A stretch of 35,288 bases of DNA from Gammaproteobacteria bacterium (GTDB lineage: Bacteria; Pseudomonadota; Gammaproteobacteria; SZUA-229): contig JAPHRO010000068.1 of the NCBI GenBank assembly GCA_026195895.1, positions 1-35,288 of the forward strand, written 5' to 3'. The position numbers and the translations under genes are program-made. Under the pieces are notes generated by a model that saw only the letters and a list, made by a program, of their open reading frames with translations, searched no databases and was not told the DNA's origin. Shown in pieces: positions 5,026 through 33,838 of this stretch; positions within the stretch are counted from its first letter, which is position 1, and every line of letters starts with the position of its first letter.

Positions 5026-5247
5026 CGATACTTGCGGCGTAGCCCGCTGCTATAACCGGTACCCATTTGAGATGGCCGAAGAACGTATAATTATCCTGAG
5101 CCATGCCCATCAGTGCAACACCAGCGGCTGGATATATATGTGTGTCATCTTCACACGCAAGAACGGTTTGGATTTAGCTCAATGCAGAAACTTTTCGGCC
5201 ATTACGCAGGATTTAAGCCACAACAAAAAACGGCGATGGCAGCATAG

Positions 5248-31027: not shown

Positions 31028-31996
31028 ATGAATATTGAGCAGATCAAAGCCCTGATAGCCGATGATATGGCAACTGTTGATGCCCTGATTCAAAAACGTC
31101 TGGCCTCAGATGTGGTGCTGGTGAATCAGCTCAGTCATTATATAGTGAATTCTGGCGGTAAGCGTTTACGCCCCCTGCTGAGTCTGATTGCCTCCCGGGC
31201 CTATAGCTACCAGGGGGAACATCATTTCACTCTGGCCGCCATTATCGAATTCATACATACCGCGACTCTGTTGCATGACGATGTGGTTGACGAGTCCGAT
31301 TTGCGCCGTGGCCGTGAAACCGCCAACGCCCTGTTTGGTAATGCGGCCAGCGTACTGGTGGGGGATTTCCTGTATTCACGCGCATTTGAAATGATGGTGG
31401 AGGTGGAAAGCATGAAGGTCATGCAGATCCTGGCAGAAACCACCAATATCATCGCCGAAGGTGAGGTGATGCAGCTAATGAATTGCCATGATGCCGATAC
31501 CACCGAGCAACGCTATCTGGATGTGATCCACGCCAAAACCGCCAAGCTGTTTGAAGCGGCTACTCGACTGGGCGCGGTTATTACAGGTCGGCCCGAGGCC
31601 GAAGAAAAAGCCATGGCCAATTATGGTATGCATCTGGGTACGGCTTTTCAGTTAGTGGATGATGTGCTGGATTACAGCTCTAATTCAGAAGAAATGGGCA
31701 AAAATGTGGGTGATGACCTGGCCGAAGGCAAGCCGACACTGCCTCTGATATATGCCATGCGCAATGGCACCCAGGAGCAATCGGCCATTGTGCGCAAAGC
31801 CATTGAACAGGGTGGTCTGGATTATATCGATGAAGTTATGGCCGCAATTAAATCCACCGGTGCCATCGAATATACGGAGCAAACGGCGAGACAGGAAGCG
31901 GACCTGGCGATGCAGCAACTTGAGCATTTGCCCGATTCGCCCTATAAAGATGCTTTAACAGGATTAGCAAAATTTTCAGTTGATCGTTCTTTTTAG
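31028..31996 (+). CDS. ispB: Octaprenyl (polyprenyl) diphosphate synthase
   Basis: A 322-residue trans-prenyltransferase that extends farnesyl diphosphate to the side chain of ubiquinone. The first aspartate-rich motif is D84-D85-x-x-D88 (LLHDDVVDESDLRRG) and the second is D211-D212-x-x-D215 (FQLVDDVLDY), with GKNVGDDLAEGKPTLP after it. Chain length cannot be read by eye; the ispB position after rplU-rpmA supports the octaprenyl/long-chain type. No ribosome-binding site is visible before the ATG. A tRNA gene begins 3 bases after the stop. Confidence 0.95.
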   Translation: MNIEQIKALIADDMATVDALIQKRLASDVVLVNQLSHYIVNSGGKRLRPLLSLIASRAYSYQGEHHFTLAAIIEFIHTATLLHDDVVDESDLRRGRETANALFGNAASVLVGDFLYSRAFEMMVEVESMKVMQILAETTNIIAEGEVMQLMNCHDADTTEQRYLDVIHAKTAKLFEAATRLGAVITGRPEAEEKAMANYGMHLGTAFQLVDDVLDYSSNSEEMGKNVGDDLAEGKPTLPLIYAMRNGTQEQSAIVRKAIEQGGLDYIDEVMAAIKSTGAIEYTEQTARQEADLAMQQLEHLPDSPYKDALTGLAKFSVDRSF

Positions 31997-31999
31997 TAT

Positions 32000-32076
32000 C
32001 GGAGTGTAGCTCAGCCTGGTAGAGCACTGCCTTCGGGAGGCAGGGGTCGGAGGTTCGAATCCTCTCACTCCGACCA
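32000..32076 (+). tRNA. tRNA-Pro (anticodon CGG)
   Basis: A complete 77-base cloverleaf. The acceptor stem is CGGAGTG with CACTCCG, and the CCA end is encoded. The anticodon stem CTGCC/GGCAG holds the loop TTCGGGA with anticodon CGG, reading CCG. The T-loop is TTCGAAT. It resembles E. coli proK. It has no obvious promoter of its own and begins 3 bases after the ispB TAG, so it is probably cut out of the ispB transcript. Confidence 0.97.
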
Positions 32077-32119
32077 GGTTTTTTAAAAGGCCAAAAAACT
32101 TAAGGCGATCTGTGTGCCT
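32052..32119 (+). repeat. 68-bp direct repeat, copy 1 (att-like, inside tRNA-Pro)
   Basis: This copy begins in the T-arm of tRNA-Pro at GGTTCGAATCC and runs through the CCA end and 43 bases beyond. It is identical over 68 bases to the copy at 32161-32228. Tyrosine integrases commonly recombine at the T-arm and 3' end of tRNA genes, which would make this the tRNA-side attachment site. Confidence 0.85.
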
Positions 32120-32160
32120 GTGGCACGGTATGATTTGCGAGTTCCCACACCCGCAAGTGC

Positions 32161-32228
32161 GGTTCGAATCCTCTCACTCCGACCAGGTTTTTTAAAAGGC
32201 CAAAAAACTTAAGGCGATCTGTGTGCCT
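32161..32228 (+). repeat. 68-bp direct repeat, copy 2 (att-like, tRNA 3' fragment)
   Basis: An exact copy of 32052-32119, offset by 109 bases. It contains only the last 25 bases of the tRNA (T-loop to CCA) and lacks the rest, so it cannot fold as a tRNA. The sequence just upstream differs from the tRNA, as expected for the far attachment site of an integrated element. Confidence 0.85.
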
Positions 32229-32379
32229 TCGGCTATGCTCTGGTCACGACATATCTCAGCGACGTGGCTCATGCACTTTAAGGGTGTTGATTATCTGTTC
32301 TTCCGCAAAATGTTTTGTTTTCATTGTTGATTTTCCGTTACTGGATTAACGAGAAATCTCACCTATGTCATGGTTCTAA

Positions 32380-32499: not shown

Positions 32500-33075
32500 T
32501 CAGGGTATTGATACAGTATGGTATCGATATATCTTAATGTCATTGCTCCAGAAATTAGCGGGCAGCCCGGCTTTTTGTTTTAAGTGTCGTAAAAACTGTT
32601 CGGCATCGGGAAGGCTTTCCCATACCGAAGGCAGGAATGTGCCTTTATGGTATCCGGATTCCAGAATTAGTCCATCGGTGCCGGGCTGTATTTGTCTCAG
32701 TAAATCGGTTTCGTCAGAAAATTCAATGGCTGTTGCAGGCGTTAAAATAGAAATATGTATCTCTAGCTCAGGTTCTTCGCCAGGCGTAACCGGGGAAAAT
32801 CTTGGGTCGTTAAAAGCCGCAGCATATGCATGCTCGGCGACATCACATACCAGCGGTTGATAGGCCTGCAAGGTGCCGATGCAGCCGCGCAACTGCTGAT
32901 GTAAATTGAGCGTTACAAATGTCGCTCTTTGCTGTTGCAGGGCAGCACTATAATCGCTGGCTTTTACCGGCAGGGCAGTATGGTGTTGCAGGCCATATTG
33001 AATAGATTGCCTGGCGATATCAAGTAACAGGTCTTTATCTGCCTGGCCAGGTTCAGTGGAAGACATAGGCGCCAT
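32500..33075 (-). CDS. amrA: AmmeMemoRadiSam system protein A (AMMECR1 domain)
   Basis: An AMMECR1-family protein of 191 residues with the signature QLRGCIGTLQAYQPL, followed by FNDPRFSPVTPGEEPELEIHISIL-type segments (read near residues 95-120) and WESLPDAEQFLRHLKQKAG near the end. The molecular function of the family is not established to my knowledge. The start is placed at ATG 33075, which has GGTGG 6 bases upstream; ATG 33066 is an alternative. Either overlaps the amrB end (by 23 or 14 bases), so the two genes are coupled. A longer open frame to 33279 lies inside amrB and is rejected. Confidence 0.9.
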   Translation of the reverse strand: MAPMSSTEPGQADKDLLLDIARQSIQYGLQHHTALPVKASDYSAALQQQRATFVTLNLHQQLRGCIGTLQAYQPLVCDVAEHAYAAAFNDPRFSPVTPGEEPELEIHISILTPATAIEFSDETDLLRQIQPGTDGLILESGYHKGTFLPSVWESLPDAEQFLRHLKQKAGLPANFWSNDIKIYRYHTVSIP

Positions 33076-33838
33076 AACCGACCACCCGATCTTTCGTGCC
33101 GGCGGTGTCACCGGAATTGCGTAAATCCAGTGTTTTTGCGTGCATGCCTTTTTGTTTGGCAAGGGTGAGTAAGCCATTAACAGGATTACGTCCACAGGCC
33201 ATATCGTAATGCACATGCTCAGGTTGTAATTTTTCAATCGCCAGGGATGTTGAGCGATCCATTTTTTGTGCTGTGGCATAGTCCTGGTAATGGCTCAGGT
33301 CTGAGCTGATAACAATCAATGTTTCATCATCCCCCCAGAGCAAATCAAGCACTTCGGCAACTTCATCGCTTTTGGCATCACCCACAACCAGTGGCACCAG
33401 ATCAAAATTGTCCAGTATCATCTGTAAAAATGGCAACTGGACTTCCAGGCTATGCTCCTGTTCGTGGGCCATATCCATGCGCGTGACCTGTGGCAGGTGA
33501 ATGATTTTATCAATGGCTTTTTGGTCAACGGCAATGGTTCCCAGTGGTGTAGCGAAGCCGTCGGAAGAAGGTGCCGCCAGGCCGGCAAAGGGCACTCTAT
33601 GTGCCGGGCCGAGCAATATGACTTTATGGATTTTGTGCCGCGCAGCCTGCAGGCAGGCATAGGCGCTGGCCGCGATCGGTCCCGAATACATATAGCCCGC
33701 ATGGGGTACAATAATGGCCTTGGGTAATATCTCGATGGAATCAGCGTCTGCCAGGTACGATGTTATATCACGCTGTAGCTGGCCAGGGTCGCCAGGATAA
33801 AACATTCCAGCCACAGCAGCTTGACGAACTTTGCTCAT
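33053..33838 (-). CDS. amrB: AmmeMemoRadiSam system protein B (MEMO1 family)
   Basis: A 261-residue MEMO-family protein, related in fold to LigB-type non-haem iron dioxygenases. Conserved segments are AAVAGMFYPGDP at the start, PHAGYMYSGPIAASAY, LLGPAHRVP, EQEHSLEVQLPFLQ, SSDLSHYQDYATA and the terminal VGYGAYVF. The histidines of the first three segments correspond to the metal-binding region described for human MEMO1. The start is set at 33838 because GGAGG lies 5 bases upstream, while an ATG at 33853 has no such site and overlaps the ribosome-binding region. It is transcribed divergently from amrS. Confidence 0.93.
   Translation of the reverse strand: MSKVRQAAVAGMFYPGDPGQLQRDITSYLADADSIEILPKAIIVPHAGYMYSGPIAASAYACLQAARHKIHKVILLGPAHRVPFAGLAAPSSDGFATPLGTIAVDQKAIDKIIHLPQVTRMDMAHEQEHSLEVQLPFLQMILDNFDLVPLVVGDAKSDEVAEVLDLLWGDDETLIVISSDLSHYQDYATAQKMDRSTSLAIEKLQPEHVHYDMACGRNPVNGLLTLAKQKGMHAKTLDLRNSGDTAGTKDRVVGYGAYVFH

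Follow-up and report, generated by a model that had tools for sequence, protein, structure and literature searches.

Introduction

Integrative elements that target tRNA genes leave a duplicate of the tRNA 3' end, as attL and attR, on either side of the inserted DNA. A repeated tRNA tail is also found at E. coli tyrT, and we know of no agreed explanation for the origin of the repeats there. Two papers describe the rtT product as released from the tyrT transcript, as resembling dispersed BIME-type elements and as possibly linked to the stringent response (PMC2965389, PMC4986893). REP/BIME and other tagged palindromic repeats are short dispersed intergenic hairpins that sometimes cluster with flanking DNA (PMC3733652).

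Here we analyse a tRNA-Pro gene in a 35,288-nucleotide gammaproteobacterial contig (JAPHRO010000068.1, all of which we call the window) whose 3' end recurs a short distance downstream. A sequence-only reading had described this duplication and explained it as an eroded integration site. Our analysis confirms the observation and partly supports the interpretation. The conclusion that we hold most firmly is that the spacer between the two copies belongs to a dispersed structured element, which we call E, and that the right end of E is trailed by a copy of local upstream sequence far above chance.

Results

The intact tRNA-Pro(CGG) gene occupies 32000..32076 of the plus strand (ARAGORN; Rfam tRNA, 66 bits), flanked by the polyprenyl synthetase gene ispB (31028-31996) and an AMMECR1 gene (32500-33279, other strand). 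The first repeat copy, S (32052..32119, plus strand), begins in the T arm and comprises the last 25 nt of the tRNA and 43 nt of trailer; this left copy leaves the tRNA intact. The second copy, S' (32161..32228, plus strand), is identical to it at 68/68 positions, with 109 from start to start and 41 bases between, just as first reported, and the match extends to 73 bases if two mismatches are allowed. Because an exact 68-mer is repeated 109 bases on, chance is excluded. The 261-nt stretch from the tRNA to S' folds with a z of -1.62, and a promoter and terminator scan of the site gave nothing convincing.

The 41 bases between the exact copies (32120..32160, plus strand) had been called unrelated. 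They are instead part of E, a two-hairpin element at 32107..32162 of the plus strand that is recognized by two covariance models described below (R1, 70.9 bits; R2, 58 bits; the window copy belonged to the training set of both), by its fold and by compensatory changes. Hairpin 1 lies at about 32113-32127 and hairpin 2 at about 32135-32156, both on the plus strand; the 3' end of the element reads CAAGTGCGG, and S' starts there. Because GG, the first two letters of S', also match the consensus of the E end, CAAGNACGG, it is uncertain to within about 2 nt where the copied tRNA tail begins. The window has one more copy of E, a weaker one, at 5108..5166 on the plus strand (R2, 28.4 bits; E 1.3e-6 and 7.8e-8 in two runs), and no flanking duplication was detected around it (direct-repeat score 15).

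A genome search with the spacer, one of the checks originally proposed, recovered the same sequence elsewhere in the window's own genome and in relatives. BLAST with the spacer region found copies on contig C45 of the own genome, between prolyl-hydroxylase-like and GNAT-like genes (names read from the sequence by eye); at the orthologous place in relative G002; beside a tRNA tail in G009; and abutting the tRNA-Leu(CAG) end in G014. Since a DNA search with a 71-base query gave matches in 4 of 54 family genomes, we built covariance models from five copies of E (R1) and from 33 copies (R2), whose E-values are only rough. R1 gave 10 hits in the own genome at E<=1, and 19 of the 54 family genomes had hits at E<=0.01. 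With R2 the own genome had 11 hits at E<=0.001, and 14 of 20 chosen family genomes had hits at the same threshold. In a sample of the class, R2 reached 4 of 274 genomes at E<=1e-4, namely the own genome and three marginal cases outside the family (E about 1e-4); such large-sample runs undercount E because fewer candidates are scored per genome. The genomes compared are assemblies that, with few exceptions, are split into many contigs, and contig ends cut off several of the arrays. Among the matches listed for 32095-32240 in phage (50,697) and plasmid (72,556) records, there were only tRNA-tail letters or weak chance-like hits, and viral contigs gave zero matches to one exact consensus pattern of hairpin 2.

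E is about 55 nt long and carries two unlike hairpins in a fixed order: hairpin 1 has the form GTGC(C)-loop-(G)GCAC, hairpin 2 has a stem such as TTGCGAG-loop-CTCGCAA, and the end CAAGNACGG follows. In an alignment of 33 copies, 90.9% of the cells in 12 pairs are paired. Changes on both sides of a pair occupy 29 cells, where shuffles gave 7.8 +/- 2.2 and slid controls 2-10, and compensatory changes are present in both stems; some bias is possible in these values because the structure was drawn by hand from a sequence-based (MAFFT) alignment. The single-sequence fold of the window copy shows both hairpins but is not clearly more stable than shuffles (z 0.11), and neither are single-sequence folds of E in general. 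No GTAG or CGTC tag was seen by eye at the foot of either stem in the 33-copy alignment. E is a dispersed, lineage-specific, non-coding family with a conserved structure. At L218 (contig C67 of the own genome), L238, L229, L240 and L242, the loop of hairpin 2 holds an insertion of about 45 bp, apparently another dispersed repeat.

We then asked how often E is followed by a copy of what precedes it, comparing the 44 nt at and after its right end with the 500 nt upstream at a score cut-off of >=30. Removing 8 exact duplicates from 78 R2 hits left 70 copies, of which 4 were without flanks and 66 were testable. Nineteen of the 66 scored >=30, and in 18 of these, at 15 loci, the duplicate starts exactly at the E boundary; the 18 are not all independent, since some belong together in a single array and others represent one gene in two genomes. 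The nineteenth, L239, is ordinary tRNA-tRNA similarity. The controls gave 0/66 for inverted sequence, 2/1001 for random positions and 62/4338 for the upstream sequence of other loci. The majority of copies (47/66) have no duplicate at this score, and we assume that in these it would have decayed. The right end of E is fixed at CAAGNACGG, and in many copies it is followed at once by a direct repeat of sequence from upstream, in most cases the end of a gene.

The better-preserved pairs have duplicates 61 to 85 bp long (about 60-85 bp where we refer to them below). Their joins share 1-4 letters with the E end (GG, AC, ACGG); the unit measures 109-125 bp at many loci, and the interior between duplicates 28-127 nt at nearly all. 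In the window and G011, part of hairpin 1 falls within the duplicate, so that the inserted part there is only 28-41 nt and the left end of E is ill-defined.

The copied sequence is the tail of tRNA-Pro(CGG) in the window, of tRNA-Arg(CCG) in G011 and G031, and of tRNA-Arg(CCT) in G011 and G020. In G022 it is the 5S tail with its terminator, and also the 3' end of argH; the 3' end of bcp is copied both in G022 and in the own genome. In G014 a terminator arm between polA and a GTPase gene is copied, and terminator regions are copied close to groEL in both the own genome and G005 and close to a radical-SAM gene in G009. Not all targets are transcript 3' ends: the L168 copy in G031 is of the 5' end of aroE, on the opposite strand. 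L122, in the own genome, is a weak case, and a degenerate tRNA-Pro(GGG) tail in G002 (score 19) was left out of the count. At L152, L153 and L218, a motif in the copied piece is also present at other loci, and the piece may belong to a composite repeat.

Some E units have grown into tandem arrays. In G011, tRNA-Arg(CCG) has an array of 3 x 113 bp, each unit including the final 19 nt of that tRNA, and tRNA-Arg(CCT) has at least two units of 117 bp, running to the contig ends. The final copy breaks off ahead of E or within it in the tRNA-Arg arrays, the window and G014.

Intact tRNA genes lie <=150 nt away from 24 of the 70 copies. In several, E shares 2-3 nt with the 5' end of a sense tRNA-Met or tRNA-Lys, or with the CCA end of an antisense tRNA-Leu or tRNA-His; in others the tRNA is 30-42 nt upstream of E and its tail is copied after E. 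Four copies (on contig C58 of the own genome and in G005, G022 and G002) are followed directly by 14-36 nt of antisense tRNA-Leu(CAG), and BLAST of the DNA and of the longest open frames found no other sequence common to these four loci. In G014 this end of E directly adjoins an intact tRNA-Leu; the tRNA-Leu(CAG) gene of the own genome has no E adjoining. Judged from these flanks, it looks as though E moves together with some right-hand flank, as E-tRNA-Leu composites.

Other tRNA tails in the own genome are copied as well. On contig C69 (L211), a 26-bp direct copy of the tRNA-Pro(TGG) 3' end, from A58, lies within about 246 nt downstream; it flanks a different hairpin-rich repeat, 'GACCCGCAGGGT...TAATAATC', which by eye resembles the end of an E. 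coli rtT unit, and the linker also has an inverted T-arm copy. On contig C13 (L179), a 16-nt copy of the tRNA-Phe 3' end occurs about 180 nt downstream, again with an inverted T-arm copy between. The tRNA-Gln(CTG) 3' end and trailer on contig C8 (L202) are followed immediately by a 31-bp perfect inverted copy, a foldback that recurs about 180 nt on, near the contig end, and contig C81 (L200) has a diverged tRNA-Met(CAT) 3' half about 100 nt downstream of the gene. In E. coli K-12 tyrV (L299), the T arm of tRNA-Tyr likewise recurs in inverted orientation within the rtT linker (score 29, 0/200 shuffles as high). An inverted copy of the start of S within the linker was considered as a general feature: it is seen at bcp in both genomes, at E. 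coli tyrV and at the own tRNA-Pro(TGG) and tRNA-Phe. Because it is missing at the E/tRNA loci, it was left out of the general model.

The nearest relative with a readable site, G005, has a single tRNA-Pro trailer, homologous to that in S, and no element. Compared with the window, the 43-nt trailer matches (0/300 shuffles as high), the E spacer does not (291/300) and the sequence beyond the trailer is not alignable (277/300), so that the right edge of this empty site is unproven.

At bcp, E and its duplication are present in the own genome and in G022. A set of 30 genomes yielded 29 orthologous loci (the thirtieth genome, G027, gave only a distant bcp homologue), and the other 28 of these lack E; they include the loci of G014 and G002, both in G022's genus. 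The S copies at bcp are identical at 72/72 positions in the own genome and at 68/71 in G022, although the gene differs between the two, and both insertions have the same start base and a common inverted copy of the junction. They may represent one old event, lost or exchanged elsewhere and kept alike by gene conversion; insertions in the same gene across genera (bcp, tRNA-Arg) are not surely independent. Because copies may be homogenised in this way, the perfect identity in the window does not prove youth, and it was unsafe to read it as the mark of a recent event.

The expectation that the site would be an insertion hotspot in relatives has weak and separate support from the ispB-amrA interval. 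In G009, on contig C7 (L051), a 45-nt tRNA-Pro 3' half (2425-2469) borders foreign-looking genes adjoining amrA; it starts at the anticodon loop, not the T arm, and is likely an island boundary with a different start. In G002 and G033 other genes sit between ispB and amrA, and inspection of these by eye revealed no integrase-like gene.

Finally, we looked for the machinery that might move E. The genes flanking E loci are housekeeping genes, and no integrase, transposase or reverse transcriptase was found among the 30 ORFs scanned of 40 that flank duplicated loci, or in 6 ORFs around the window site. Reverse transcriptase genes (RVT_1) occur in 6 of 30 genomes and in 3 of 14 E-bearing genomes; none was found in the own genome. 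Y1_Tnp genes are present in 25 of the 30 genomes. In the 20-genome R2 set, all 6 genomes negative for E have Y1 and 4 of the 14 E-positive ones do not, and at 12 Y1 loci there is no E within about 1.5 kb on either side of the gene. Both enzymes were rejected as partners of E, their occurrence being uncorrelated with it.

Discussion

Overall, we think it probable that the feature behind tRNA-Pro is one copy of a lineage-specific hairpin repeat, E, together with a duplicate of local sequence, and that E is mobile and forms an rtT-like tRNA-tail repeat. According to this model, E would insert beside RNA hairpin boundaries (tRNA ends, the T arm, terminator arms), and its right end would be joined via 1-4 matching letters. 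The joining reaction, or its repair, would re-copy about 60-85 bp of flank to give S-E-S', and recombination between S copies could then make or lose units of 109-117 bp and keep the copies alike.

The original proposal, that the 68-mers are attL and attR of a tRNA-Pro integrase element whose interior has been deleted, now appears very unlikely. A repeat that starts in the T arm while the left copy keeps the tRNA intact is what such an element would leave, and foreign-looking DNA in G009 is bordered by a tRNA-Pro 3' half in this very interval; but the DNA between the 68-mers belongs to a conserved element with many targets, and the sequences duplicated around it at 15 loci are unrelated and have no common core, an outcome that one tRNA-specific integrase would not give. 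The scanned ORFs hold no integrase, tandem arrays of the E unit exist, and neither the listed phage and plasmid matches nor the one hairpin 2 pattern sought in viral contigs points to such an element. The accompanying suggestion of a very small element fared better, since the spacer does lie within a dispersed element of about 55 nt and the G005 site has one trailer and no element. More plausible, if still rather unlikely, is simple slippage, in which E came first and its hairpins later made the replication fork slip back about 110 nt via 1-4 nt of homology, E itself being passive. The microhomology at the joins (GG, AC, ACGG), the hairpins placed there, the tandem arrays and the similar 109-125 bp unit at many loci all agree with slippage. 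A plain tandem duplication, however, should end with E, whereas in the window, G011 and G014 the final unit stops short of E or partway through it, and the E-tRNA-Leu composites suggest that E itself moves.

Two further explanations would also make E mobile, and we regard each as improbable. A retrotransposition-like, target-primed insertion of a SINE-like E would account for the fixed right end and variable left end, for duplications of about 60-85 bp in well-preserved pairs and for the carriage of 3' flank to new loci, but RVT_1 was found in only 3 of 14 E-bearing genomes and not in the own genome. Movement of E as a REP/BIME element by a Y1 (RAYT-type) transposase would suit its size, hairpins and intergenic sites and the wide occurrence of Y1_Tnp genes; against it stand the 12 Y1 loci free of E, the presence of Y1 in every E-negative genome of the R2 set and its absence from several E-positive ones, and stem feet at which no GTAG/CGTC tag is seen. 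A bolder synthesis, which we offer as a speculation with the odds against it, is that E could be a SINE-like mobile element of bacteria, structured and non-coding, whose 3' end is fixed; such an element would go in next to RNA hairpins, and it is one that makes 60-85-bp target duplications, carries its 3' flank along and builds arrays of gene tails, rtT-type repeats being the same kind of process with a different element. To our knowledge, the target duplications of known bacterial transposons are far shorter than 60-85 bp.

These results have consequences beyond the locus. A duplicated tRNA 3' end alone is not evidence of an integrase or an island. E repeatedly separates a gene tail from its copy, at the ends of tRNA, 5S and protein genes and at terminators, and this makes the origin of tRNA-tail repeats testable in strains that have E and strains that lack it. 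If the SINE-like reading were true, gene tails would have been turned into tandem arrays by E.

A literature search found no description of E or of such a duplication. The tRNA-targeting integrative elements share with the window a tRNA 3' end duplicate (68/68) that flanks an insert; E differs from them in its many targets, its lack of a common core, its interior of 28-127 nt and the absence of an integrase in the nearby ORFs scanned. A SINE would have the fixed 3' end and variable-length target duplications that E has, and a host reverse transcriptase; RVT_1 occurs in 6 of 30 genomes and was not found in the own genome. REP/BIME elements are, like E, short dispersed intergenic hairpins, but E has two unlike hairpins in fixed order and often a host duplicate at its flank; no tetranucleotide tag was seen by eye in its 33-copy alignment, and no E lies near the 12 Y1 loci.

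The closest likeness is to rtT (RF00391) at E. coli tyrT and tyrV, with tandem units after a tRNA, each beginning from the tRNA tail and ending hairpin-rich. At tyrV the tRNA-Tyr tail (its last 19 nt, A58 to A76) recurs three more times at a period of 178, with RtT elements between and a partial last unit; the tRNA-Arg(CCG) units of E start at A58 as well. This architecture of tRNA-tail repeats with a hairpin linker is found in the window and at tRNA-Arg(CCG) and tRNA-Arg(CCT), and in degenerate form at tRNA-Pro(GGG). The E. coli gatY, rbfA and cvpA regions, considered as further rtT cases, gave no RtT above cut-off and no match to the pattern. Unlike rtT with its period of 178, E units behind tRNAs measure 109-117 bp, and E is found, with duplications to match, at the ends of 5S genes, terminators and protein genes as well. 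R2 finds no match in the E. coli tyrT region; conversely, the RtT covariance model, which gives 4 matches in E. coli as a control, finds none at gathering at the E loci tested, and at E<=1 in the window stretch it gave only tRNA. By these tests E is a member of neither family, being rtT-like in its layout and REP-like in its hairpins.
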